A DNA stretch of 64,000 nucleotides from an uncultured Acidobacteriia bacterium. GTDB taxonomy: Bacteria; Acidobacteriota; Terriglobia; Bryobacterales; Bryobacteraceae. A program made the position numbers and the translations under genes. Shown here piece by piece: positions 31,564-44,231 of this stretch (position 1 is its first letter; every line of letters starts with the position of its first letter). The DNA is taken from assembly GCA_903851195.1 (NCBI GenBank), contig CAINNJ010000004.1, forward strand, positions 434,001 through 498,000, read 5' to 3'. The notes beneath the pieces were generated by a model. It was not told where the DNA came from. It searched no databases and saw only the letters and a list, made by a program, of their open reading frames with translations.

Positions 31564-32487
31564 TCAGATGCCCTTACGTTCGCTCCAGGGCAGGTAGGCA
31601 GCGCCGTAGAGCCCCGCTTCATTGCCCAGCTGCGCCTGTTCAACGCGGGTGCCAGTTGAGCGAAAAGTGAACGACCTTCGCCGGGTTTCCGCCAGCATCG
31701 CGGGCGCGAACAGATCCCAGCCGCCGATCACGCCGCCGGCAATCAGGTATAGCGGGAAGTTAAAGACGTTGACGAGCGTCGCAAGCACAAGGCCGATCGA
31801 TTCGCCCATCGAGGTAAAGATCATGATCGCCTTCTCATTGCCCGCGACCGCGAGATCGTAGATGTCTTTGGCGGTTACGTTCTCGCCGAGACCCAGCAAC
31901 CTGGCCATGGCGATAATGGCCGTCGCCGAGCCGTGTTTTTCCACGCAACCGGTGTTCCCGCAGCCGCAGGGATTGCCGTTCGGGACGGCGGTGATGTGAC
32001 CGAGTTCTCCGGCCATGCCGTTCACGCCGCGCAACACCTTGCCGTTCGAGATGATGCCGCCGCCGATGCCGGTGCCGAGCGTCAGCATGATGAGATCGTT
32101 CACATCGCGTCCCGCGCCGATCCACTTCTCACCCAATGCCGCGGCATTCGCGTCGTTTTCCAGAATTACCGTGGTGTCGAGACGCCGGCCGATCTCGTCG
32201 CGGATGGGAAAATTTTCCAGCGAAGCAATATTGTTGCAGTTCCGGATGACTCCGTCTTCCAGCGAAATGAAGCCCGGGACACCGATGCCGATGCCCGCCA
32301 GGTTCTCCTTTCCAAAGCGGTCCCGCACCGCGCGGATCGCCTCCACCATGTCGTGCACGATCGCCTCGCGCCCTTCTGAATACTGCGTTTTGCCAGAAAC
32401 TTTATCCAGCATCCTGCCTGTCCGGTCTACTGCCGCGGCACGCAGATTCGTGCCGCCGAGATCGAGACCAATGCTGTATTCCGTCAT
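31564..32487 (-). CDS. ROK family glucokinase
   Basis: A 307-residue sugar kinase. The phosphate loop is SIGLDLGGTNLRAAAVDRTG; the ROK signature is LGHITAVPNGNPCGCGNTGC followed by VEKHGSATAI, with the Cys-rich zinc site C-G-C-G-N-x-G-C; ENDANAAALGEKWIGAG holds the catalytic Asp. No N-terminal HTH, so it is an enzyme and not a ROK repressor. It likely converts glucose to glucose-6-phosphate in the cytoplasm. It leads the minus-strand kinase pair and is divergent from the cytochrome cluster across a 285-bp gap. Confidence 0.9.
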   Translation of the reverse strand: MTEYSIGLDLGGTNLRAAAVDRTGRMLDKVSGKTQYSEGREAIVHDMVEAIRAVRDRFGKENLAGIGIGVPGFISLEDGVIRNCNNIASLENFPIRDEIGRRLDTTVILENDANAAALGEKWIGAGRDVNDLIMLTLGTGIGGGIISNGKVLRGVNGMAGELGHITAVPNGNPCGCGNTGCVEKHGSATAIIAMARLLGLGENVTAKDIYDLAVAGNEKAIMIFTSMGESIGLVLATLVNVFNFPLYLIAGGVIGGWDLFAPAMLAETRRRSFTFRSTGTRVEQAQLGNEAGLYGAAYLPWSERKGI

Positions 32488-32679: not shown

Positions 32680-32708
32680 TTGACTCCGCTCACTACGTAA
32701 CATAACAT
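32680..32708 (+). promoter_or_regulatory. Candidate sigma-70-type promoter for the cytochrome/oxidoreductase cluster
   Basis: TTGACT (32680-32685) and TAACAT (32703-32708) are separated by 17 bp, in an AT-richer part of the gap and about 65 bp before the ATG at 32773. The spacing is ideal and the boxes are near consensus. The organism's sigma factor preferences are unknown, so this is a candidate only. Confidence 0.45.
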
Positions 32709-32772: not shown

Positions 32773-34092
32773 ATGGATAACGACGTCATCTTTCAGCCGC
32801 TGAAGTTCCGCAATCTGACCGTTAAGAACCGGCTGTTCCGGTCGAGCATTTCCGGCAGATTCGATAACTACAACGGTTCGGGAAACCGGGCCCGGATCAA
32901 CTGGGAGTCGAAGTTCGCGAAAGGCGGAATCGGCGCGATCATCACGTCGTTCGTTCCGGTCCACGTGCGCGGCCGGATCCTGCCCAATTACGCCATGATC
33001 GACAACGACGACAAGATCCCGTTCTGGAGGGAAGTCGGCAAGGCGGTGCATGAATACGACTGCAAATTCATCATGCAGCTCAGCCATTCGGGCCGTCAGC
33101 GGGACGTGCCCGGCGTGGAAAACCTGATGAACAAATCGCTCTCTTCGACCGACAATATGGATACTTTTCATGGCCTGCTCTGCCAGGCCATGACGAAGGC
33201 GGAAATCAAGGAGACGGTGCAGCATTTCGCCGACGGGGCGAGGCGCGCGAGGGCGGCCGGTCTGGACGGCGTGGAACTACACTCGTCGCACGGTTATCTG
33301 ATCACGCAGTTTCTGAGTTCCGCTATCAATAACCGGAAAGACGAATACGGCGGGTCGCTCGAAAACCGGGCGCGTTTTCTGCTCGAAATCATCCACGCAA
33401 TCCGGCGGGAAGTAGGCGACGATTTCCATCTTCAGGCGAAAATCAGTGCGGTAGATAACAATAATGCGCTTTATCCGTGGGAAAAGAAGGGAAACACACT
33501 CGAGGAATCGATTCAGGTGTGCAAATGGGTGGAAGCGGCTGGCGTGGACGCGATTCATGTTTCCATCGGCAGCATGTTCCCGCACCCGCAACTCCCTTCG
33601 GGCGGCTTCCCCGCCGATGAACTGAACTGGTGGTACGGCGGCATGGCTTCGAGCGGCAAGCGGGGCTTCCTGAATTACACGATGTTCCACTACAAGGCGC
33701 TGCGGCCGATCTTTCTGGGCCTGTGGAACCGGACCAAGAAAGACCGCCCGGTGGAAGGCGTTTGCGCGGTGGAAGCGCGTGAAATCAAGAAGCATGTCAA
33801 AGTGCCGATCCTCAACACGGGCGGTTATCAAAGCGGCGCGCTGATTCGCAAGGTGATTTCAGAAGGCTATACGGACGCGGTGACGATCGCGCGTCCGCTG
33901 ATCGCCAACAACGATCTGCCGCATATTCTGCAGCGCGGGGAGGATCCGGAGAGGCCATGCTCCTTCTGCAACCGGTGTCTGATCAACGCGGTGGCGAATC
34001 CCCTGGCCTGCTACGATCAGCGCCGCTTCCCTTCGCGCGAGGCGATGCTCGAAGAAGCGATGTCGGTGTTCCATCCCGCCCCTTATGAATAG
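32773..34092 (+). CDS. Old Yellow Enzyme-like NADH:flavin oxidoreductase with Fe-S cysteines
   Basis: A 439-residue FMN TIM-barrel enzyme, start supported by GGAG 8 bp before ATG 32773. Features: FQPLKFRNLTVKNRLFRSSI, KFIMQLSHSGRQRDVPGVEN, GLDGVELHSSHGYLITQFLS, RKDEYGGSLENRARFLLEII, and VPILNTGGYQSGALIRKVIS. The C-terminal CSFCNRCLIN...LAC cysteines match the iron-sulfur site of 2,4-dienoyl-CoA/trimethylamine dehydrogenase-type enzymes, yet the FAD/NAD domain of those enzymes is absent (the protein ends soon after). Such enzymes reduce or dehydrogenate unsaturated rings. It heads a plus-strand cluster with cytochromes and a GMC enzyme. Confidence 0.9.
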   Translation: MDNDVIFQPLKFRNLTVKNRLFRSSISGRFDNYNGSGNRARINWESKFAKGGIGAIITSFVPVHVRGRILPNYAMIDNDDKIPFWREVGKAVHEYDCKFIMQLSHSGRQRDVPGVENLMNKSLSSTDNMDTFHGLLCQAMTKAEIKETVQHFADGARRARAAGLDGVELHSSHGYLITQFLSSAINNRKDEYGGSLENRARFLLEIIHAIRREVGDDFHLQAKISAVDNNNALYPWEKKGNTLEESIQVCKWVEAAGVDAIHVSIGSMFPHPQLPSGGFPADELNWWYGGMASSGKRGFLNYTMFHYKALRPIFLGLWNRTKKDRPVEGVCAVEAREIKKHVKVPILNTGGYQSGALIRKVISEGYTDAVTIARPLIANNDLPHILQRGEDPERPCSFCNRCLINAVANPLACYDQRRFPSREAMLEEAMSVFHPAPYE

Positions 34093-34168
34093 GCCGCGGG
34101 GGTTACATGAGGCGGATTTCGGTGCAGTTGCGGCGAGGTGGTGAAGGAACCGTGGCGGAGCGGAAAAG

Positions 34169-35737
34169 ATGAGCGTAGCGAAGACAAGAAGTGAAGACGG
34201 GATACTGACTGACGAAGTACGCGAAAGTCCGGTCGATCAGGCGATTTTCGGCACGCGCCGGAAACTCCTGCTGCTGATCGCGGCCGTGTTACTCGTTCTC
34301 GCGGCCCTTGCCGCGTGGAAATTCCTGACCGACAAACCGGTGGTCTACGAAAGCGCGCTGGACCACTACAAATATGGATCCATCGGCAGCGAACCGGGCG
34401 GCTCTCTTCTGCAGACCGTCGGCGGTTTGCTGCCGCCTTACCGGATTTTCCGGATTTTGCCGAAAATCGCCCCGGAAAAGCTGCCTGGCGGCTATGCGTC
34501 GCTCGGCCTGCTTTTCGAAAAGGACCACGACATGCCGATCGGCGTTTCAAGGCGCTGGCGGCTGGGTTTCGATCAGGTCGGACTGAACTGCGCCAGCTGT
34601 CATACGGGCACCTACCGCGCCGCGCCGGGGGCTCCGCCCGTGATTGTACCCGGCATGCCGGCACACCAGCTGGAACTGCAGAAGTTCTTCGATTTCGTGA
34701 CGTCGGCGGTGCTCGACAACCGTTTCACGGCGGACAACGTGATCGGCCTGATTCAGGAAGACGGCGGCAACCTCAATGCATTCGACCGGTATCTGTACCG
34801 CACGCAGCTGATTCCGCGCACGCGGGAGACGACGCTGGAACTGCGCTCGAAGATCGCGGAACTACTGGGCGATCCAAGCATTCAGTGGGGCGCGGGCCGG
34901 GTGGATACGTTTAATCCGTATAAGGCGATTCAGTTCAACTGGCAACTGGGTTCCCTGCCGCATTCCGAACTCATCGGCGCCTCCGACTTCCCTTCGTTGT
35001 GGAATCAGAAGCCGAGGGTGGGAATGCACCTGCACTGGGACGGCAATAACGATTCGGTGGATGAGCGGAACCGCAGCGCTTCTCTGGGCACCGGTGTCAC
35101 GCCGGTTACGCTGGACCGCCCCGCGTTGCAGCGCGTGAAGGACTGGATCATGGTGTTGCCTCCCCCGAAATACCCGTTCTCCGTGGACGAGGCCTCGGCC
35201 TCGAAAGGCGCGGCCATCTATCAAAAGCTGTGCGTCGAATGTCACGCGGATGAGCACTTCCGGGAAGGCGTGGTCGCGGCCAATGCGAAGTATGTGGGCA
35301 CCGTGGTTCCCATCGCGCAGATCGGCACCGATCCCTACCGCCTGAATTCTTATACAGAAAAATTCGCGGACCAGCAGTATTCGCTGTATCCCGATTCGGC
35401 CGATCGTTTCACGCATTTCCGAAAGACCTATGGCTACGCCAACCATCCGCTGGACGGCATTTGGGCGCGCGCGCCGTATCTGCACAACGGCTCCGTTCCC
35501 ACACTGCACGATCTGCTGAGCCCCGGCAAAGACCGACCCAAAACGTTTTATCGCGGCTACGACGTTTACGATACGGCGAAGGTTGGATTCCGGACCGATG
35601 TGGCCGAAGAGAACGGCCGTAAGTTTTTCCGCTATGACACATCGCTTCCTGGCAACGGGAACGGCGGTCACGAGTACGGGACCAGCCTTTCCGAGGCGGA
35701 TAAGCAGTCCCTGGTCGAATACATGAAGAAGTTCTGA
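34169..35737 (+). CDS. RoxA-like di-haem cytochrome c, single membrane anchor
   Basis: A 522-residue protein with one membrane helix at about residues 29-50 (LLLLIAAVLLVLAALAAWKF) and the rest outside. Two haem sites are seen: NCASCHTGT (about residue 150) and CVECHAD (about residue 365). The C-terminal block RAPYLHNGSVPTLHDLLSPG, RPKTFYRGYDVYD, GNGNGGHEYGTSLSEADKQ is that of RoxA-like/MauG-like di-haem proteins (rubber oxygenase and di-haem peroxidase relatives). GGAGCGGAAAAG precedes ATG 34169. Substrate unknown: either an oxygenase/peroxidase or an electron carrier for the GMC enzyme downstream. Confidence 0.85.
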   Translation: MSVAKTRSEDGILTDEVRESPVDQAIFGTRRKLLLLIAAVLLVLAALAAWKFLTDKPVVYESALDHYKYGSIGSEPGGSLLQTVGGLLPPYRIFRILPKIAPEKLPGGYASLGLLFEKDHDMPIGVSRRWRLGFDQVGLNCASCHTGTYRAAPGAPPVIVPGMPAHQLELQKFFDFVTSAVLDNRFTADNVIGLIQEDGGNLNAFDRYLYRTQLIPRTRETTLELRSKIAELLGDPSIQWGAGRVDTFNPYKAIQFNWQLGSLPHSELIGASDFPSLWNQKPRVGMHLHWDGNNDSVDERNRSASLGTGVTPVTLDRPALQRVKDWIMVLPPPKYPFSVDEASASKGAAIYQKLCVECHADEHFREGVVAANAKYVGTVVPIAQIGTDPYRLNSYTEKFADQQYSLYPDSADRFTHFRKTYGYANHPLDGIWARAPYLHNGSVPTLHDLLSPGKDRPKTFYRGYDVYDTAKVGFRTDVAEENGRKFFRYDTSLPGNGNGGHEYGTSLSEADKQSLVEYMKKF

Positions 35738-35749
35738 GAAAGCGTCCCG

Positions 35750-37654
35750 ATGACTCCTTACGACAATCTGGCTACGTGGTACAAGCGCGTCACCTGGTTC
35801 GGGATTTTCCTGAACGCAACCTTCATCTTTCCGCTGCTGTTTGTTCCGCAGTTCGCGCTCGATATTCTCGGGATCGATTGCCAGCCGCTGATTTTCGCCC
35901 GCACGGCCGGCTTACTGTTGTGCTGGATCAGCGTGTTCTACATCCCGGCGACGATGGATCTGAAGAAGTATCGCGTGTATGCGTGGCTCGCGATGTTTCC
36001 CTCGCGAATCGGCGGCGCGACGTTCTTTTTCGGCGCGGTCCTGTTCTTCGATAAGCCGCTCGGCTTTCTGCCCATCGCGATTATCGACGCGAGCATCCTG
36101 CTGATGCAGTTGTTCATTATGCTGAAAATCCGCGAGGTGGAGAATCCGCCCAAGGGTATTCTCGTCGCCGGGCCTTCGAAGAGTGCAAAATGGGCGAAAC
36201 GGGCCGCGGTGGCGGTCGTCCTTCTGGCGATCATTGGCGGCACCGCCTGGTACAAGCTCTTCCGCGAAGTGGATCAGACTTTTACTTCCGCCGAGGAACG
36301 TTTTAAGTACGGCTCGATCGGCACGGAAGGGCCTGAGGGCATTCCCTACTGGATCTGGCTTGCCCTGCCCCGCGTGTTTCCGGAATACCTTCCCGGTCCC
36401 GGCGGCTACAATGCACTGGGCTTCTACACGGAGCCGGGCAAAGCGATGCCCGTCGGGTTCTCGGTCAAGACGGTCGGCATCGACCGCGTGGGGATCAACT
36501 GCGCTTTGTGTCACGCGGGGAGCCTGCGGTACTCCGCCGGCGAAGCGCCCGTGCTGCTCACCGGCGCGCCGACGAACAGCGCCGACATACTCGGCTATGA
36601 GCGCTTCCTGTTCCGCTGCGCCTCCGATCCGCGCTTCAACTCCAAAACGATTCTGGCGGCCATCGCGCCGATGTACAAACTGTCTTTGCTGGACAAGGCC
36701 CTCTACAAGTACCTGCTGATTCCCGCGGTAAAGAAAGCTCTGCTGAAACAGAAGGAGGTCTTTGCGTGGACGAACAGCCGTCCGGCGTGGGGCGGCGGCC
36801 GGGTGGATCCGTTTAATCCGGTGAAGCACGGCAAGCTGGGCGTCACCGTGCTGCCGATGGACGATCCGGAATGCGCGAAGACGCCGAGTTTCTGCACCAT
36901 CGGCAACTCGGACATGATGCCCATCTGGAATATGCGGCCCCGCGTGGAGGGCAAAATGGTGCTCCACTGGGACGGACTGAACACGAAGCTGGTGGAAGTG
37001 GTGCGCAGTTCCGCCCTGGGGGACGGCGCCACGCCGAAGACCCTGCCTCTGGACGCCATGCAGAACATTCAGGACTACATCATGGATCTGAAGCCGCCCG
37101 CTTATCCGGCCGCGCGCTTCCCCGTGAATGCGGCCCTGGCGGCGGAAGGCAAGGCCATCTTTGAGCGCGGCGAGGAAAGCTGCGCCGGCTGCCATGCATT
37201 CGGCAAAAAATACACCGGAACCGTGATTGCGTTGTCGAAGGTGGGCACGGATCCGAACCGATCCTCCATCTGGCGGGACGATTCGGCGAAGGCTTACAAC
37301 GCCTATGCGAGCAGCTATCCCTGGGGCTTCTCCGGCTTCCGCGCCACGGACGGGTATCAGGCCGTTCCTCTGGACGCGATCTGGACGCGCGCCCCTTATC
37401 TGCACAACGGCTCCGTGCCAACGCTGCGCGATTTGCTGGAAATTCCGGAGAATCGCCCAAAAACGTTTTACAGAGCCTATAATGTCTTCGATCCGGTGAA
37501 AGTCGGTTTTGTGTCGGACGGAGAAGAAGCGAAAAGCGCGGGATATCGCTACGACACCGCCGTCCGCGGCAACGGGAATCAGGGCCACGTGTGGGGATCG
37601 GCCCTGACCGCCAAAGAAAAAGACGCGCTGGTCGAGTATATGAAGACCCTCTGA
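35750..37654 (+). CDS. RoxA-like di-haem cytochrome c fused to an N-terminal multi-helix membrane domain
   Basis: A 634-residue protein. Residues about 1-165 hold four or five membrane helices (FGIFLNATFIFPLLFVPQFA, ARTAGLLLCWISVFYIPATM, AIIDASILLMQLFIMLKI, AAVAVVLLAIIGGTAWYKLF) with no recognised family. The remainder resembles the preceding protein: NCALCHAGS, then CAGCHAF, APYLHNGSVPTLRDLLEIPE, RPKTFYRAYNVFD, GNGNQGHVWGSALTAKEKDA. It follows the previous gene by 12 bp, so it is co-transcribed. A membrane domain fused to this cytochrome is not usual for RoxA and may serve as a quinone or partner docking site (inference). Confidence 0.85.
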   Translation: MTPYDNLATWYKRVTWFGIFLNATFIFPLLFVPQFALDILGIDCQPLIFARTAGLLLCWISVFYIPATMDLKKYRVYAWLAMFPSRIGGATFFFGAVLFFDKPLGFLPIAIIDASILLMQLFIMLKIREVENPPKGILVAGPSKSAKWAKRAAVAVVLLAIIGGTAWYKLFREVDQTFTSAEERFKYGSIGTEGPEGIPYWIWLALPRVFPEYLPGPGGYNALGFYTEPGKAMPVGFSVKTVGIDRVGINCALCHAGSLRYSAGEAPVLLTGAPTNSADILGYERFLFRCASDPRFNSKTILAAIAPMYKLSLLDKALYKYLLIPAVKKALLKQKEVFAWTNSRPAWGGGRVDPFNPVKHGKLGVTVLPMDDPECAKTPSFCTIGNSDMMPIWNMRPRVEGKMVLHWDGLNTKLVEVVRSSALGDGATPKTLPLDAMQNIQDYIMDLKPPAYPAARFPVNAALAAEGKAIFERGEESCAGCHAFGKKYTGTVIALSKVGTDPNRSSIWRDDSAKAYNAYASSYPWGFSGFRATDGYQAVPLDAIWTRAPYLHNGSVPTLRDLLEIPENRPKTFYRAYNVFDPVKVGFVSDGEEAKSAGYRYDTAVRGNGNQGHVWGSALTAKEKDALVEYMKTL

Positions 37655-37664
37655 GGAGTCACGG

Positions 37665-40064
37665 ATGAGAATGATGGGACGAAAAAGTTTAATCGGAGTA
37701 CTGATCGGGGGCGCGGCTCTGGCGCTGTTGCTGGCGAGTTGCGAGAAGGGCGTGGTTTCGAGCCTCATTCAGGATGAAGCCCTGCGCGCGGGCCGCACCG
37801 CGGAGTCTCTGCAGGCCGCCGACGAGGATTACTTCCATGACATGGATCGCGCCGAACCGCTGACGACGGACGAAATCAAAGGTCGCGATAACTGGATCGT
37901 ATTTTCGGGCGGCAACGACCGGTTCTGGGATTACATGAGCCGGAACAGTTTCGGAGCGCTGGACTTCCTGAAAACGCTGTCTTCCGAACCGAGTCTCGGC
38001 TATGGCCGGCACAACCGCTGGCAGTATCTGGGTCTGGTGAACGAACCGTGCTTCGAAGAGGCGAAGGGGCCCGACCCGAACCGTTTCGGACTCTGGCTCG
38101 ACAAACGAAAGGCCGATTGTCCGGCGGATCCGTTTGAGAACGAACAGAAATATCCGGGCGTGAAGATCGGCGCGCGTGGCAAGACCGTTCCCGTGGGCTC
38201 TTCCTATGGCTACGCCACGGGTATCGTGGGGCTTCGGCTGTTTCCCAATCCGGATTTCGACGAAGCCGCCGCGAAGAAGTGGGACGCGAAAAAATACTAT
38301 ACCGATCACGATTATTACGACGACAAAAATCTGATTCGCCCGTATCGCGTCGGCATGTCGTGCGGCTTTTGTCATGTGGGCCCGAGCCCGGTGCGTCCGC
38401 CGAAAGATCCGGAGAATCCGGAGTGGGCGAATCTCGCGTCCAATCCCGGCGCGCAGTATTACTGGACCGACCGCATTTTCTACTGGCGCAAGGACGAGGG
38501 CAACTTCGTTTACCAGTTATTCCACACTTACCTGCCGGGCACGCTCGATACGTCGTTCGTTTCCAGCGATAACATCAACAATCCCCGCACCATGAACGCC
38601 GTTTACAGCGTGCTGGACCGCGCCAAGAATTCCATGCACTATAAGGAAAAGCTGGTCGGCGGGCAACTGCTGAATAAACAGTTCGGCGACTTCGACAGAA
38701 CGAAGAGTCTGGACTTCCTGTTTCAGAAGCCCGACACGGTAGCGGCCGCCCGAGTGCTGAAAGACGGCTCGGATTCGGTCGGCATTCTGGGGGCGCTCAA
38801 CCGCGTTTATCTCAATATCGGCCTGTTCAGCGAAGAATGGCTGACGCACTTCCTGCCCCTTGTCGGCGGCAAGAAAGTCACGCCGATTCTTATCGCCGAC
38901 CTGCAGAAGAACTCTTCTTACTGGAATGCCAACGTGCAGCAGACGCCGGACGTGGCGCTCTTCTTCCTCAAGACGGCCAAGCCGGATTATCTGAAAGACG
39001 CTCCGGGCGGGGCGGCAATTCTGGCCGCCGGCGCGGGGAAGGTGGGACGCGGCAAGATCGTCTTCGCGGAGAACTGCGCGCGCTGCCATTCAAGCAAACA
39101 ACCGGATCTCTGCGAGCCCGGGCAACTTTGCAAGCCGGGTCAGATGCAGGAGAATTCGGCGGCCTACTTCGACTGGATGCGGACGGAAGTGCAGAAGCCG
39201 GACTTCTTAAAAGACAATTTCCTCTCCACGGAAAAGCGCATCCCGGTTACCGAGACCGGCATTAACGCGTGCAGCCCGTCGGCCAGCAACGGCATCGGCG
39301 GCAATATCTGGGATAACTTCTCCTCGCAGACTTACAAGGAACTGCCGGCGGTTGGCGCCGTAACTGTCTACAATCCGGGCGACGCCACCACGATGACTTT
39401 CAACATGGAAGGCGGCGGACGCGGCTATACGCGGCCGGCGTCGCTCATCAGTCTGTGGTCCACCGCGCCTTTCTTACAGAACAACTCCGTCGGGAAATTT
39501 AATTCAAGCCCGTCGGTCGAGGCTCGTCTTGATTCGTTCAACGACTCCATCGGCCAGATGCTCTGGCCGGAACGCCGCCAGAGGGATGAATATCTGGGCG
39601 ACAACGTTCCCGGCAATCACCCGGTCATTCCGGGCCCGAGTCTGATTCAGCGCACCACGCAGACTTCGTACATCAAAGTCGGCACGGGATACCTTCCCGG
39701 CGCGCTGAAGGATCTTCTGGGACTGTTCGAGAAGGACGTGATCAGTATCGGCCCGATTCCGAAAGGCACGCCGGTCGGGCTGCTTGCCAACCTCAACCTG
39801 ACGCCGTCGGCGGAAGAAACTCCGCTGCAGACGCTGGAGCGGCAGAAACAACTGCTGATTCTGATTAAGAAGATGGTTGTGGAACTGAAGAAGGTCAAAG
39901 GCAAGAGCGACGATGAGATTCGCGCGGCCTTCCGGCCTCTGGTTCCGGAGCTGATGAAGATGAGTAAGTGCCCCGACTACATCGTCAACAAGGGCCATTA
40001 CTTCGGCACGAACCTGGCGGACGCGGACAAACTCGCGCTGATCGAATTCCTGAAGACCTTCTGA
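37665..40064 (+). CDS. Cytochrome c lipoprotein, third cytochrome of the cluster
   Basis: A 799-residue lipoprotein (lipobox LALLLASC at about residue 26). GAGGAGTCACGG precedes ATG 37665. Two haem sites are seen: SCGFCHVGPSPVRPPKDPEN and ENCARCHSSKQPD, about 235 residues apart. Between and after them are long unassigned segments, including NSVGKFNSSPSVEARLDSF, which parallels the APYLHNGSV segment of RoxA-like proteins (SLWSTAPFLQNNSVGKFN). It is larger and more divergent than the other two cytochromes. The stop overlaps the GMC start (TGATG). Likely sits on the outer face of the inner membrane or on the outer membrane. Confidence 0.8.
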   Translation: MRMMGRKSLIGVLIGGAALALLLASCEKGVVSSLIQDEALRAGRTAESLQAADEDYFHDMDRAEPLTTDEIKGRDNWIVFSGGNDRFWDYMSRNSFGALDFLKTLSSEPSLGYGRHNRWQYLGLVNEPCFEEAKGPDPNRFGLWLDKRKADCPADPFENEQKYPGVKIGARGKTVPVGSSYGYATGIVGLRLFPNPDFDEAAAKKWDAKKYYTDHDYYDDKNLIRPYRVGMSCGFCHVGPSPVRPPKDPENPEWANLASNPGAQYYWTDRIFYWRKDEGNFVYQLFHTYLPGTLDTSFVSSDNINNPRTMNAVYSVLDRAKNSMHYKEKLVGGQLLNKQFGDFDRTKSLDFLFQKPDTVAAARVLKDGSDSVGILGALNRVYLNIGLFSEEWLTHFLPLVGGKKVTPILIADLQKNSSYWNANVQQTPDVALFFLKTAKPDYLKDAPGGAAILAAGAGKVGRGKIVFAENCARCHSSKQPDLCEPGQLCKPGQMQENSAAYFDWMRTEVQKPDFLKDNFLSTEKRIPVTETGINACSPSASNGIGGNIWDNFSSQTYKELPAVGAVTVYNPGDATTMTFNMEGGGRGYTRPASLISLWSTAPFLQNNSVGKFNSSPSVEARLDSFNDSIGQMLWPERRQRDEYLGDNVPGNHPVIPGPSLIQRTTQTSYIKVGTGYLPGALKDLLGLFEKDVISIGPIPKGTPVGLLANLNLTPSAEETPLQTLERQKQLLILIKKMVVELKKVKGKSDDEIRAAFRPLVPELMKMSKCPDYIVNKGHYFGTNLADADKLALIEFLKTF

Positions 40065-41935
40065 TGGGCGGGAATTCCGGCGAAGAGTTCGAATACATCG
40101 TAGTGGGTTCGGGCGCGGGGGGCGGCGTTGTCGCCTCCCGCCTCGCGCTTGCGGGGCACACCGTGCTGGTCCTTGAGGCCGGTTCGGACGCGCTCGCGGA
40201 AGACCCGGAGAAGCCCGGCCTTCCGGAGCATTATCAGGTCCCCTGTTTCCACGCGCTCTCCACGGAGAACGAAGAACTGCGGTGGGATTACTTCGTCCGC
40301 CACTATGGCGACGACGAACGGCAGAAGCGGGATCCCAAATATGTCGAAGAGTATGGAGGCGAGCGGGTGGACGGCGTGCTTTATCCGCGCGCCGGAACGC
40401 TGGGGGGCTGCACGGCGCACAACGCCATGATCACCGTGTGCCCCCATGAGGCCGACTGGGACGACCTGGCCGCGCTCACCGGCGATCCGACCTGGCGCGC
40501 GGATAACATGCGCCAGTATTTCGAGCGGCTGGAAGACTGCAACTATCGCACGCCCTACCGGTGGCTTTATAAACTGCTGGGCTGGAATCCTTCGCGACAC
40601 GGCTTTGCCGGCTGGCTCAGCACGGAGAAGGCTCTGCCGCTCGAAGCTTTGGGCGACAAGGCGCTGGTGAAGACCATCAAACTGTCCGCGCTGAATGCGC
40701 TGAGCCGGCTCGGACTGCCCGTCCGGACGTGGGTCGACGCGCTGCGGTCTCAACTCGATCCGAACGACTGGCGCATGGTGCGCGACGTTCCGCTGGGCGT
40801 CTGCTCGGTGCCGCTGGCGACGAGAGGACATGCGCGGAACGGGACGCGCGAGTTCCTGCTGGAAGTGCAGAAGAAGTTCCCGGAGCGGCTGCGGATCGAA
40901 CTGGACGCGCTGGCCACGAAAGTATTGTTCGAAGATGGCCGGGCAGTGGGTGTGGAGTATCTGAAAGGCCGCCGTCTGTTCCGCGCGCATGCCACGCCGA
41001 GTCCCGAGCCCGGCGAGCGGCGCAGCGCCCGAGCCTCGGAAGAGGTGATCCTCTGTGGCGGCGCGTTCAATACGCCGCAGTTGCTGATGCTGTCGGGCAT
41101 CGGTCCGGCGGAAGAACTGGCGCGCCACGGAATCGCCGTGCGGGTGGATCTTCCCGGCGTCGGCAGCAATCTGCAGGACCGGTATGAAGTCGGCATGGTG
41201 AACCGCATGAAGACGGACTGGAGCGTGCTGAAAGGCGCGGCGTTCGACCGGAACGATCCGATTTACGCCGAGTGGAAGCAGTGCAGGACCGGCGTTTACA
41301 CCACCAATGGCGCGGTGATGTCGATTATCAAGAAGTCCACGGACGACAAACCGTTGCCGGATTTGTTCGTGTTCGCCCTGATGGGTAAGTTTCAGGGCTA
41401 TTTTCCGGGTTATTCAAAACTTTTCCCGGAACACCTGAACTATCTGACCTGGGCTGTGCTCAAGGCGCATACGAATAACACGGCGGGCACGGTCCGTCTG
41501 CGCTCGGCGGATCCGCGGGACGTTCCGCTGGTCAACTTTCATTATTTCGACGAAGGCAACGATACGTCGAAACAGGATCTGGAAGCCGTGGTGGACGGCA
41601 TTAATTTCTGCCGCATGCTGAGCCGGGGCCTCGACGGGCTGATCGGCGAGGAGGAGATGCCGGGCAAGGAACTGGAAAGCCGGGAGGATCTCCGCCAGTT
41701 CGTGAAAGACCATGCCTGGGGCCACCACGCTTCCTGCACCTGCCCGATCGGCGATCCGGAAAAGGGCGGCGTGCTGAACGGGAATTTCGAGGTGCACGGC
41801 GTGAAAGGATTGCGGGTGGTGGACGCGTCCATTTTCCCGAAAATACCGGGCTTTTTCATCGCGGCGTCGATTTATATGGCCGCGGAGAAGGCGACCGACG
41901 TGATCGCCGCGGCGAAAGCAAAGCGGCCGCGCTGA
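40064..41935 (+). CDS. GMC family flavin oxidoreductase
   Basis: A 623-residue FAD enzyme from ATG 40064 (TGATG overlap). FAD loop EYIVVGSGAGGGVVASRLAL, GMC signature region PRAGTLGGCTAHNAMITVCP, second signature GGAFNTPQLLMLSGIGP, and C-terminal AWGHHASCTCPIGDP and FPKIPGFFIAASIYMAAEKA. The catalytic His is in the HHASC segment. The GFF-type end is shared with cholesterol-oxidase-like and glucose/fructose-dehydrogenase-like members. It has no signal peptide. Direct overlap with the cytochrome lipoprotein implies electron transfer from an alcohol oxidised by this enzyme to the cytochromes (inference). Confidence 0.92.
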   Translation: MGGNSGEEFEYIVVGSGAGGGVVASRLALAGHTVLVLEAGSDALAEDPEKPGLPEHYQVPCFHALSTENEELRWDYFVRHYGDDERQKRDPKYVEEYGGERVDGVLYPRAGTLGGCTAHNAMITVCPHEADWDDLAALTGDPTWRADNMRQYFERLEDCNYRTPYRWLYKLLGWNPSRHGFAGWLSTEKALPLEALGDKALVKTIKLSALNALSRLGLPVRTWVDALRSQLDPNDWRMVRDVPLGVCSVPLATRGHARNGTREFLLEVQKKFPERLRIELDALATKVLFEDGRAVGVEYLKGRRLFRAHATPSPEPGERRSARASEEVILCGGAFNTPQLLMLSGIGPAEELARHGIAVRVDLPGVGSNLQDRYEVGMVNRMKTDWSVLKGAAFDRNDPIYAEWKQCRTGVYTTNGAVMSIIKKSTDDKPLPDLFVFALMGKFQGYFPGYSKLFPEHLNYLTWAVLKAHTNNTAGTVRLRSADPRDVPLVNFHYFDEGNDTSKQDLEAVVDGINFCRMLSRGLDGLIGEEEMPGKELESREDLRQFVKDHAWGHHASCTCPIGDPEKGGVLNGNFEVHGVKGLRVVDASIFPKIPGFFIAASIYMAAEKATDVIAAAKAKRPR

Positions 41936-41996
41936 TCGCCTTATTTGGCGGCCCGCATTGACAGTCCGAGTAATTCAGTCATAACATGGTCGCACC

Positions 41997-42461
41997 ATGG
42001 ACCTTTCCCCCGACGTTTACCAGATTGCCCGCGAAATACTCTACCGCGACGGAATCCGGAGCCACTTCCAGCTCGAAATGGATTTCCCGATGGAGGACTA
42101 CTGGGCCATCATCACCAACTGGGAAAACATCACGTGGGTGATGGACGCCATTAAACAGGAGCAGCTCGGCGAACAGATCCGGCGCCTGTCCTTCTCCACG
42201 GGCACCACGCTGCGCGAGCGGCTGATGTCCACGGACGCAGCTACCCACGTGCTGGTCTACGCGGTGCTGGAATCGCCCATGCCGGCCAAGATGTACGAAG
42301 GCACCGTCACCATCAAAGAGACCGCGCCGGGCAAGACGTTCCTTACTTATGACGCGGTTTATATTCCGAAGGACGGCGTCGATCCCGCCAAACTGAAGGC
42401 CAGCGTCGACCTGAACTTCACGCACCGCGTTGCCTGGACAGTGGCAACGTTCAAGAAATAG
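41997..42461 (+). CDS. Hypothetical SRPBCC-like protein
   Basis: A 154-residue soluble protein without signal peptide. The sequence [20 protein letters not shown], followed by [10 protein letters not shown] and a run of strands ([46 protein letters not shown]) to a C-terminal helix, has the layout of START/SRPBCC domains that bind hydrophobic ligands. The call rests on fold pattern only. It follows the GMC gene by 61 bp and precedes the SDR gene by 25 bp, so it is likely part of the same unit and could present a hydrophobic substrate. Confidence 0.55.
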
Positions 42462-42486
42462 CCCTCATCCGTTCGACTGGACCACG

Positions 42487-43251
42487 ATGACCAACACGAA
42501 AAAAGTTGCACTCGTCACGGGCGCCGGCAGCGGCATCGGCCGGGCTACCAGCCTGGCACTGCATGCCGCCGGCTATTCCGTTGTCCTTGCGGGACGGCGC
42601 GCGGAAGAACTCGAGAAGACCGCGGCGGCTGCCGGTGAGAGTGACGGCGCCGCTCAGATGCTTCCCTTCCCTGTCGATATCGGCAACCCGGATCAGGTCA
42701 AAGCTCTTTTCGCCAAGACCGAAGAGACGTTCGGACGGCTCGACCTTCTGTTCAACAATGCCGGCATGGGCGCGCCCGCCATTCCGATGGAAGAACTGTC
42801 GTATGAGCAGTGGAGCGCCGTGGTCGCGGTCAACCTGACCGGCGCGTTTCTGTGCGCCCAGCAGGCGATCCGGATGATGAAAGCGCAGTCGCCGAGGGGC
42901 GGCCGGATCATCAACAACGGCTCGATTTCCGCGCATACACCGCGTCCGCACTCCGCGCCCTACACAGCTACGAAGCACGCTATTACGGGACTCACGAAAT
43001 CCATCTCGCTCGACTGCCGGCAGTTCGATATCTGCTGCGGCCAGATCGATATCGGGAACGCGGCCACGGAAATGACCCAGCGCATGACGGCGGGAGTCCT
43101 GCAGGCCAACGGTGTGCTCGCGCCGGAACCGCGCATGGACGTGCAGAACGTGGCGGACGCGGTGCTCTATATGGCCGGGCTGCCGCTCAGTTCGAACGTA
43201 TTGTTTATGACCGTCATGGCGAATACGATGCCGTTTGTGGGCCGCGGTTAA
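42487..43251 (+). CDS. SDR family NAD(P)-dependent oxidoreductase
   Basis: A 254-residue short-chain dehydrogenase. Cofactor loop [20 protein letters not shown], then [14 protein letters not shown], the catalytic [20 protein letters not shown] followed by KHA (Ser and YxxxK) and helix FG. ATG 42487 is used because the family start is a few residues before the first strand. It follows the SRPBCC-like gene in the same direction, so it may oxidise or reduce an intermediate made by the GMC or OYE enzyme. Its 3' end borders a tandem-repeat block. Confidence 0.92.
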
Positions 43252-43253
43252 TA

Positions 43254-43373
43254 CCGCGAGTTCAGGCAGAGAGCGGCTTGCCCGCGAGTTCAGGCAGAGA
43301 GCGGCTAATCCCGCGAGTTCAGACGGAGATCGGCTTGCCCGCGAGTTCAGGCAGAGAGCGGCTTGCCCGCGAG
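43254..43373. repeat. 28-bp tandem repeat array of four units spanning the end of the Kdo-hydroxylase gene
   Basis: Copies of CCGCGAGTTCAGGCAGAGAG plus CGGCTTG begin at 43254, 43282, 43311 and 43339, with a partial fifth at 43367. Period is 28 bp (29 once). One unit differs by several bases (GACGGAGATCGG). Each unit carries the reverse complement of the end of the minus-strand gene (G-K-P-L-S-A then TGA), so the gene's last codons have been multiplied. There are no spacers, so this is not a CRISPR. Confidence 0.9.
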
Positions 43374-44231
43374 GCGCTCCAGAATCGACGAGGGCGCCAG
43401 CTGAGGATTCGCGAGACTCGCGCGCGAGACAATCACGGTCTGTTCCAGCGCCAGCCGGCCGCCGAGCACGGCGTGCGGCACCATGTCGGTAAAGACCAGC
43501 CAGGTGGATCCGGGGGGCAGATCGAAACGGTACTTCGGACAGTCCCGCTGCCATTCCTCCCGGTGCTTCAGCCAGTCGTGAAAGTGCAGCATGAAGGCAT
43601 CGTACGGAGACCGGTCGACAAGCGGCAGCCCGGCGCGGCGAAGAGTGCGCACCGCGGTCCTGCGGAGCTTATGCAAGCCGGATTCCGCCGTTTCCGCAAA
43701 CCTCGCCAACCCGGCATTGGCCGCCTCCTTCGGGCCGAGGAGCGCGAACGGATCGGACACCAGCCACTCGCGCGGCTGCTCCGGATTCACGTTGGTAAAG
43801 CAGCGCAGAATCAGGTCGCCAAAAACGGGTCTGCTGGGGAAGGCATCGACATGAAGCAAGTCGTTGCGTTTGGTCAGCGGCAGGTCGCGCCCGCGCTCTT
43901 CGATGGACCGGAAGCTGGCGTAGTCAATCTTCCAGTTTGCGGCGTAAGCGGGCAAAATATCCGCCATAAAGCGAAGCGCAAGCCGGGAGTATTCCCGCAT
44001 ACCATTCCGGACGGCTTCGGTTTCCGCGCTGTCCACCAGCCCGGTCACGCGATCCACATTTGGTTTGTACGCGATATTTTTGTGAATGCTGCGCGCGTCC
44101 TGGGAAGCGCCCATCAGTGCACCGCGAACGCTCGCGGGGATTTCGAAGCCCCCCTCCGGAAAGAAAAGAATATCTCCTTTTTCCAGAACTGCTCTGAAAT
44201 CGGACGTCGTCGTTGCGTTGATCAGGCCCAA
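43347..44231 (-). CDS. Kdo hydroxylase family protein
   Basis: A 294-residue protein. The central block RNDLLHVDAFPSRPVFGDLI, followed by FTNVNPEQPREWLVSD and the late WLVFTDMVPHAVLGGRLALE, matches the family of iron/2-oxoglutarate-type Kdo hydroxylases (PF11004 as I recall). H-x-D and the distal His (VPHAVL) are the metal ligands expected. It would modify lipid A/Kdo core sugars at the cytoplasmic side. The start is TTG 44231: no ATG exists upstream before the stop at 44282-44280, and the first residues resemble a normal N-terminus. The last codons sit in a tandem repeat. Confidence 0.82.
   Translation of the reverse strand: MGLINATTTSDFRAVLEKGDILFFPEGGFEIPASVRGALMGASQDARSIHKNIAYKPNVDRVTGLVDSAETEAVRNGMREYSRLALRFMADILPAYAANWKIDYASFRSIEERGRDLPLTKRNDLLHVDAFPSRPVFGDLILRCFTNVNPEQPREWLVSDPFALLGPKEAANAGLARFAETAESGLHKLRRTAVRTLRRAGLPLVDRSPYDAFMLHFHDWLKHREEWQRDCPKYRFDLPPGSTWLVFTDMVPHAVLGGRLALEQTVIVSRASLANPQLAPSSILERLAGKPLSA

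Follow-up and report, generated by a model that had tools for sequence, protein, structure and literature searches.

The window analysed here comprises 64,000 nucleotides of contig CAINNJ010000004.1 from an uncultured Acidobacteriia bacterium of the Bryobacteraceae, and at positions 32773-43251 it holds a cluster of seven intact open reading frames (ORFs), all found on the plus strand in the ORF listing of the window. Families were assigned to the encoded proteins by Pfam and NCBIfam profile scans. The first gene (32773-34092) encodes an OYE-family flavoenzyme of 439 amino acids (aa), whose sole Pfam match is PF00724 (219 bits). It is followed by three genes encoding di-haem cytochromes, here named cytA (34169-35737; 522 aa; PF21419, 65.9 bits), cytB (35750-37654; 634 aa; RoxA-like_Cyt-c, 59.6 bits) and cytC (37665-40064; 799 aa). 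Downstream of these lie the genes for a GMC flavoenzyme (40064-41935; 623 aa; PF00732 and PF05199), for an SRPBCC-like, possibly lipid-binding protein of the Polyketide_cyc2 type (41997-42461; 154 aa) and for an SDR (42487-43251; 254 aa; PF00106 (adh_short), 173 bits). The SRPBCC assignment is marginal, since PF10604 scores 28.1 bits against a cut-off of 27.4. From the first gene to the seventh the gaps are 76, 12, 10, -1, 61 and 25 bp, the -1 being a TGATG overlap between cytC and the GMC gene, which starts at 40064. Minus-strand ORFs at 31564-32487 and 43347-44231 border the cluster. The original prediction, made from the letters of the sequence, had described seven closely spaced plus-strand genes of these families, and the scans confirm both the ORFs and the families. 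It was also right about the overlap, while the gaps that it gave as 11-12 bp are 12 and 10 bp.

The cytochromes contain exactly two CxxCH motifs apiece, located at 141 (CASCH) and 355 (CVECH) in cytA, at 251 and 478 in cytB, and at 233 and 471 in cytC. Among the three, only cytA and cytB contain the APYLHNGSVPTL block. These two are encoded by adjacent genes and are 43% identical, and in cytB a hydrophobic multi-segment domain (approximately residues 1-135) is fused to the di-haem cytochrome. Simple hydropathy analysis finds one hydrophobic N-terminal segment in cytA, several in cytB and one in cytC, and none in the OYE, GMC, SRPBCC and SDR proteins; judged from its sequence, cytA is probably membrane-anchored. 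The CxxCH pairs, the APYLHNGSVPTL block and the RoxA-like_Cyt-c matches agree with the prediction of two RoxA-like di-haem cytochromes. Both proteins also pass the cut-off of 150 bits of the di-heme-cytochrome C peroxidase model NF040606 (204.1 bits for cytA and 175.2 for cytB), as does the cytA of Rhizobium johnstonii (203 bits), while cytC scores 34.1 and is not a member.

When it comes to the rubber oxygenases, a close kinship is not found. The scores of the RoxA, RoxB and RoxC models are 69, 71 and 79 bits for cytA and 57, 58 and 72 bits for cytB, while the NCBIfam cut-offs are 1000, 900 and 900, respectively; cytC has no match listed for any of the three at E<=0.001. The profile search proposed with the original prediction thus goes against a close kinship with rubber oxygenases and in part contradicts the prediction by placing cytA and cytB in the di-haem cytochrome c peroxidase subfamily. 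RoxA (4b2n) is nevertheless the only match of cytA in the PDB at E<=0.01, and it is the top match of a combined cytA/cytB profile (E 2.6e-25). Like RoxA and RoxB (LatA), cytA and cytB have two CxxCH motifs, the MauG motif PYLHNGSVP and a C-terminal axial histidine. An alignment to RoxA shows that the inter-haem tryptophan (W302), the MauG motif and the C-terminal histidine (H641) are kept in both window proteins; RoxB has valine instead of the tryptophan. The position of F317 is leucine in cytA and cytB in the profile alignment, and threonine in cytA in the phmmer alignment. The roles of these RoxA residues are taken from the consulted part of PMC6311187. Among the compared loci, which are labelled by L-numbers (L033 and L069 being the same contig), phenylalanine is found at the F317 position in the cytA of L012 and L033, while the haem-bridging tryptophan of the WDG sequence is serine (HSDG) in the cytB of L066 and L067.

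Given the model cut-offs, missed more than 10-fold, and the F317 position, membership of cytA and cytB among the rubber oxygenases was rejected. A wider version of this idea is that the cluster cleaves isoprenoids oxidatively, be it rubber, terpenoids, carotenoids or quinone side chains, and that the flavoenzymes handle the resulting keto-aldehydes. The position of RoxA at the top of the PDB matches and the retained tryptophan, MauG motif and axial histidine are what one would expect of such a pathway. The low model scores and the missing phenylalanine count against it, as do membrane anchors predicted where RoxA-type enzymes would be secreted and, in other genomes, neighbours that are acyl-lipid enzymes (see below). 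It is considered quite unlikely.

In a tree of 37 cytA/cytB-type proteins the window cytA groups with the cytA of L054 and L065 (support 100/99), while the window cytB belongs to a clade of nine proteins (support 100/99) that are all encoded by second di-haem genes, including the rhizobial ones. The cytA-type rows do not resolve into one clade. Two plasmid proteins annotated as di-heme-cytochrome C peroxidase (L090 and L092) form a separate branch together with two proteins from the same family as the window (L083 and L084), a placement that is unsure because long branches meet there. RoxA references were sought in five genomes behind the compared loci, giving one weak match (46 bits) and none above the cut-off. 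An AlphaFold2 model of cytA built from seven sequences had a mean predicted local distance difference test (pLDDT) score of 53.3 and was not used. The genome of the window has seven PF21419 matches; two are cytA and cytB, and two of the other five pass the cut-off. The frames at these five matches each contain two or three CxxCH motifs. At L090 (7437-11384, S. fredii pSF45436a) the di-heme-cytochrome C peroxidase gene is paired with a patatin gene and has many transposase genes around it.

The third cytochrome was predicted to be a cytochrome c lipoprotein, and cytC indeed has two CxxCH motifs and a lipobox-like LLASC. It has no Pfam family at E<=0.001, belongs to a wide family that has no Pfam model and is, on the alignment, best described as a derived di-haem protein. 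At the place of the MauG motif cytC reads APFLQNNSV, so that the histidine of the motif is replaced by glutamine. In an alignment of 48 cytC rows this position is leucine in 37, glutamine in nine, isoleucine in one and histidine in one, the latter being a second copy in L025. Both CxxCH motifs are kept in all 48 rows, and a C-terminal GH in all 47 that have letters there. The loss of the MauG-motif histidine in cytC, the predicted membrane anchors and the other gene neighbours set the window proteins apart from RoxA and RoxB.

Comparison of the cytA/cytB profile with that of cytC aligned the C-terminal haem region only, and against the PDB the cytC profile gave only short matches around a CxxCH. 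The AlphaFold2 model of cytC (pLDDT 82.4, predicted template modelling score 0.87) superposes on ten MauG entries in VIA with Z 8.3-8.6 over 260-273 residues at 12-15% identity. The best superposition (Z 8.6, 267 residues, 4.3 Å) has a Z only slightly higher than what the tool regards as common. RoxA is absent from the VIA rows for this model, and Foldseek found nothing at E<=0.001. The length of cytC is over twice that of MauG, and there is no sequence match between the two. In L025 (7523-9655) and L043 (7622-9609) a second cytC with its own GMC gene adjoins the main cytC in opposite, back-to-back orientation; these second copies are 42-43% identical to the window cytC.

The OYE protein was predicted to be an OYE-like reductase with Fe-S cysteines, in accordance with the PF00724 match and a four-cysteine motif. 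It consists of one TIM-barrel domain, and no second FAD/NAD domain was matched. The cysteine cluster, C-x2-C-x2-C-x10-C, lies near the C-terminus and is kept in all eight aligned OYEs. Fe-S members of the OYE family have a similar cysteine motif plus a second domain. What we take to be the OYE active-site motif is HxxH in the window and in L065, and HxxN in the other six rows. In 43 of 44 GMC rows the catalytic histidine is kept and a phenylalanine stands at a second site; the remaining row, from L028, has a frame break beyond which it is misread. The second site is presumably the position of the second catalytic Asn or His that is usual in the family.

GMC domains are also found fused to hydrolases near such genes. 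A GMC-patatin fusion of 1562 aa is encoded directly after a cytC relative on the Mesorhizobium onobrychidis plasmid pOM4 (L087:12822-17507); its patatin domain scores 26.6 bits in Pfam against a cut-off of 27.7, and 124 bits by BLAST. At L079 (10992-14414) a fusion of 1141 aa joins a cholesterol-oxidase-like GMC domain to an alpha/beta hydrolase and is located near a di-haem protein whose N-terminal extension is long, and at L080 an ORF of 1143 aa is clustered with a metallophosphoesterase gene. Another reading of the window cluster is the oxidation of sterols, steroids or hopanoids at the envelope. The L079 fusion, which scores 148.5 bits on the cholesterol-oxidase model (cut-off 850), speaks for it, and SRPBCC, SDR and OYE proteins would all fit steroid chemistry. 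The window GMC is far from cholesterol oxidase (27.6 bits), and patatin and Tle1 hydrolases, both of which recur near these genes in other genomes, act on phospholipids; we regard sterol oxidation as very unlikely.

The neighbourhood is conserved on rhizobial plasmids. A search of a plasmid collection with cytA gave 65 records, 19 of them with at least 80% query coverage, and a search with cytC gave 21. A long cytA and a long cytC occur together in 18 of the 19, all from Rhizobium or Sinorhizobium, and the listed coordinates place cytC 2.0-2.2 kb downstream of cytA on the same strand in all 18. Gene order was examined in detail for three of them: R. johnstonii 3841 pRL11 (L085), S. fredii CCBAU 45436 (L086) and R. 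leguminosarum Ta6k (L091). All three have the order OYE, cytA, a 432-bp gene (143 aa), cytB, cytC, GMC and a patatin-like gene. The proteins of L085 and L086 are 57-58% (OYE), 45% (cytA), 43-44% (cytB), 45-46% (cytC) and 48-49% (GMC) identical to those of the window. The separate 143-aa protein of R. johnstonii is 48% identical to residues 1-131 of the window cytB, which makes the latter a fusion of two genes adjacent in the rhizobial operon. In S. fredii the patatin-like gene is annotated as two hypothetical ORFs, both of which are covered in BLAST by the patatin queries.

Since gene order is kept between the window genome and three rhizobial plasmids, the conservation of the neighbourhood on which the original prediction depended is borne out. 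The conserved unit is the first five window genes, from OYE to GMC, and not all seven as had been thought. The SRPBCC gene has no match in 70 compared loci (69 distinct) nor in the three plasmid loci, and it is preceded by a promoter-like sequence, in itself weak evidence; the rhizobial operons end in patatin, and the SDR is not part of them. A rhizobial gmcA gene is required for nitrogen fixation according to the part of PMC7105596 consulted. It was considered as a mutant of the operon and rejected, as it is pRL100444, encodes 550 aa and, by its number, lies on pRL10.

Outside the rhizobial plasmids the genes fall into two modules, one being OYE-cytA-cytB and the other cytC-GMC. Of 150 genomes sampled from the family of the window, with the window's own among them, 35 match cytA at E<=1e-20, in some cases over the C-terminal part only; none of the four other same-genus genomes listed in that sample does so. 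The OYE gene is located directly 5' of cytA in five of 20 family regions (L065, L066, L067, L074 and L082), and cytB comes next in L065, L066 and L067, as it does in L054 from the public genomes. Across the phylum, 19 of 396 genomes have a cytC relative at E<=1e-30. In public genomes 50 cytC loci were collected, mostly from Acidobacteriota, but also from Alpha-, Beta- and Gammaproteobacteria, Sorangium and others. A GMC gene is present in 41 of these, directly downstream on the same strand in 26 and elsewhere in the locus in 15; six of the nine loci without it have cytC less than 2 kb from an end. Both modules, with a full or a distant cytC, are found together in L012, L033, L054, L065 and L068.

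Other genes accompany cytC in the 50 loci, namely those for c4 (about 143 aa; 26 loci), c2 (about 430 aa; 24 loci), a DyP-type protein (23 loci) and a catalase-like protein (20 loci). None of the four lies beside cytC in the window. The c2 and c4 families have no Pfam match, and the best PDB match of the c2 profile has E 0.52. In L008 (3747-5665) and L041 (11917-13641) c2 and c4 are highly conserved beside cytC-GMC. A profile built from the DyP group has 27 matches in the PDB, the best being a putative peroxidase (E 2.7e-64) followed by dye-decolorizing peroxidases, while a single DyP-like member is below the model cut-offs. The catalase-like family has no significant Pfam match, and the sole PDB match of its profile at E<=0.1 is coral allene oxide synthase (AOS), entries 1u5u (E 9.4e-5) and 3dy5 (E 8.3e-4). 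All enzyme families mentioned here except cytC, c2 and c4 are already named.

A BLAST search with nine lipid-enzyme queries, drawn from nine of the loci, gives patatin-like genes in seven of the 50 cytC loci, in six of which the distance to a core gene is at most 260 bp, and Tle1-like genes in three, at 149, 1894 and 2506 bp from the core. In loci other than the 50, a patatin-like gene is at most 82 bp away from a core-type gene (L068, L085, L086, L087, L090 and L091), and a Tle1-like gene at most 374 bp away (L065, L086 and, near a distant relative of cytA, L084). In 21 related genomes (about 128 Mb) there are 54 patatin matches, a background from which about 0.35 matches would be expected in the 837 kb searched, although this gives an order of magnitude only because the detection method and the taxa differ. 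An animal haem peroxidase gene (PF03098, 222.7 bits) adjoins the GMC gene in L008, one of the 50 loci, and a cytA relative in Qingshengfaniella is clustered with another (350 bits) and an alpha/beta hydrolase gene. PF03098 is the superfamily of fatty-acid dioxygenases.

One might ask whether the cluster rather detoxifies peroxides or lipid hydroperoxides, with true di-haem peroxidases fed by the respiratory chain and with OYE, GMC and SDR clearing aldehydes and enones. The membership of cytA and cytB in the peroxidase model NF040606, the frequent DyP-type and catalase-like proteins in the cytC loci and the peroxidases at the top of the DyP-group matches all accord with this. Against it, some of the loci have lipase or phospholipase genes next to the core; three different di-haem proteins would also seem to exceed the need of a simple peroxidase system, the best PDB match of cytA is RoxA and not cytochrome c peroxidase, and the single DyP-like member does not reach the model cut-offs. 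Detoxification is judged rather unlikely.

Starting from the observed gene content and order, their conservation, the loss and retention of key residues and the lipid enzymes encoded nearby in some relatives, the cluster may be read as a membrane-anchored pathway for oxygenation of unsaturated acyl lipids, of the oxylipin type. Lipid oxygenation in this broad sense has, in our judgement, an even chance of being right, and our confidence in any single step is clearly lower. Three features make an unsaturated acyl lipid the best guess for the substrate: two of the di-haem proteins come as a tandem pair, membrane anchors are predicted, and some relatives have phospholipases and peroxidases of the lipid type encoded close by. 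The order of the steps, the localisation of the proteins and co-transcription are, like the substrate, putative. In the proposed scheme cytA and cytB would be tandem periplasmic di-haem oxygenases or peroxidases attacking a C=C bond and yielding a hydroperoxide, hydroxy or keto compound. The derived di-haem protein cytC would be their partner, either converting the hydroperoxide or transferring electrons. Inside the cell GMC and SDR would take over the hydroxy or keto compound, giving an enone for the Fe-S OYE to reduce; a possible lipid carrier is the SRPBCC protein. In the relatives a patatin or Tle1-like hydrolase of the same cluster would release the substrate. Such a pathway may serve to produce signals, to break down plant lipids or to remove peroxides. 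The original idea of a conserved, envelope-anchored cluster with a probably hydrophobic substrate is supported, while a polymeric substrate is not favoured, as the neighbours elsewhere suggest acyl lipids and not rubber or a polymer.

The closest working model for the cluster, by analogy, is provided by the fatty-acid di-haem enzymes of Pseudomonas aeruginosa, oleate dioxygenase and diol synthase, which the part of PMC4496055 used here describes as a tandem di-haem pair with 43.4% identity. PA2077 oxidises oleic acid to its 10-hydroperoxide, for which both haems are required, and PA2078 converts the hydroperoxide into a diol (PMC4496055). Oxylipins formed by this activity regulate motility and biofilm, according to PMC5155153. 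By their description in PMC4496055, PA2077/PA2078 (FadCcp) resemble cytA/cytB in being a tandem, approximately 43% identical di-haem pair with the MauG motif. They are periplasmic and modelled on RoxA, and PA2077 has a predicted membrane helix (PMC4496055). PA2078 has serine at the haem-bridging tryptophan (PMC4496055), as has the cytB of L066 and L067, whereas the window cytA and cytB both keep the tryptophan. The P. aeruginosa genes are described as a two-gene operon, while the window has three di-haem proteins, OYE, GMC and a membrane domain.

Several observations weigh against lipid oxygenation. Plain alcohol oxidation by the GMC protein is doubtful because it appears to lack the usual second catalytic residue. 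The window operon contains no lipase, An_peroxidase or catalase-like gene, and a search of the window's genome, made without a positive control, gave neither the catalase-like nor the DyP proteins. There is no patatin or Tle1 match in the DNA examined for 40 of the 50 cytC loci, and two of the three Tle1 matches lie 1.9 and 2.5 kb from the core. Moreover, L029, L034 and L010 are among the 50 and supplied queries, so that their matches arise by construction. The first of the two S. fredii patatin-like ORFs has no Pfam match, and the R. johnstonii cytB is outside NF040606 (111.7 bits against 150). The match to coral AOS spans 61 residues and was missed when a single member was searched alone, and the distal histidine of the NTKTHG motif is kept in 11 of 17 catalase-like rows, with tyrosine in three and glutamine in three.

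A more far-reaching version of the lipid reading, which we consider unlikely if conceivable, is a mobile bacterial oxylipin pathway common to Acidobacteriota and legume symbionts, where di-haem c-type cytochromes replace lipoxygenases. The catalase-related and DyP-like proteins would then process hydroperoxides, the single-domain Fe-S OYE would take the role of an oxophytodienoate reductase (OPR), and the GMC protein, without its second catalytic residue, would perform a non-standard reaction. The octadecanoid pathways of plants and corals comprise a lipase, a dioxygenase, AOS and OPR/OYE. Analogous parts are found across the gene neighbourhoods, namely patatin, a haem dioxygenase, an AOS-like catalase-type protein and OYE; unlike in the octadecanoid pathways, these parts are scattered over different genomes, and no lipoxygenase was seen. 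If this version is true, rhizobia could make or break plant-type oxylipin signals. To our knowledge few bacterial oxylipin pathways have assigned genes, and few members of the di-haem RoxA superfamily have tested functions. The consulted part of an octadecanoid review (PMC11719350) holds nothing relevant on di-haem proteins.

Searches of open-licence papers, in part with locus tags guessed from position, brought up no account of the operon as a conserved system of several cytochromes, and the claim that the set is undescribed thus stands within the papers so listed. A defined, conserved gene set in the well-studied R. johnstonii 3841 offers a handle on the function of database entries that bear only the name di-heme-cytochrome C peroxidase, and it joins three uncharacterised families (cytC, c2 and c4) and an odd GMC subgroup in one testable system.

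The last two genes of the cluster are less firmly tied to the rest. Matches to the SDR are few and weak across the loci. In one relative, L067, an SDR that is 33% identical to that of the window is encoded directly after cytB on the same strand, which suggests some link of the SDR to the module. Promoter-like sequences are located at 32680-32708, 5' of the OYE gene, and between the GMC and SRPBCC genes at 41958-41987 (TTGACA-18-TAACAT, 10/12); such sites are weak evidence because six were found where 3.0 were expected. Judged from its sequence, the second site could give SRPBCC and SDR a transcript of their own. The number of terminator-like sites, 14 where 10.7 were expected, is uninformative. 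The bordering minus-strand gene at 43347-44231 encodes a protein of the Kdo hydroxylase family (PF11004, 269 bits), which scores 204 on the NCBIfam KdoO model with its cut-off of 300.

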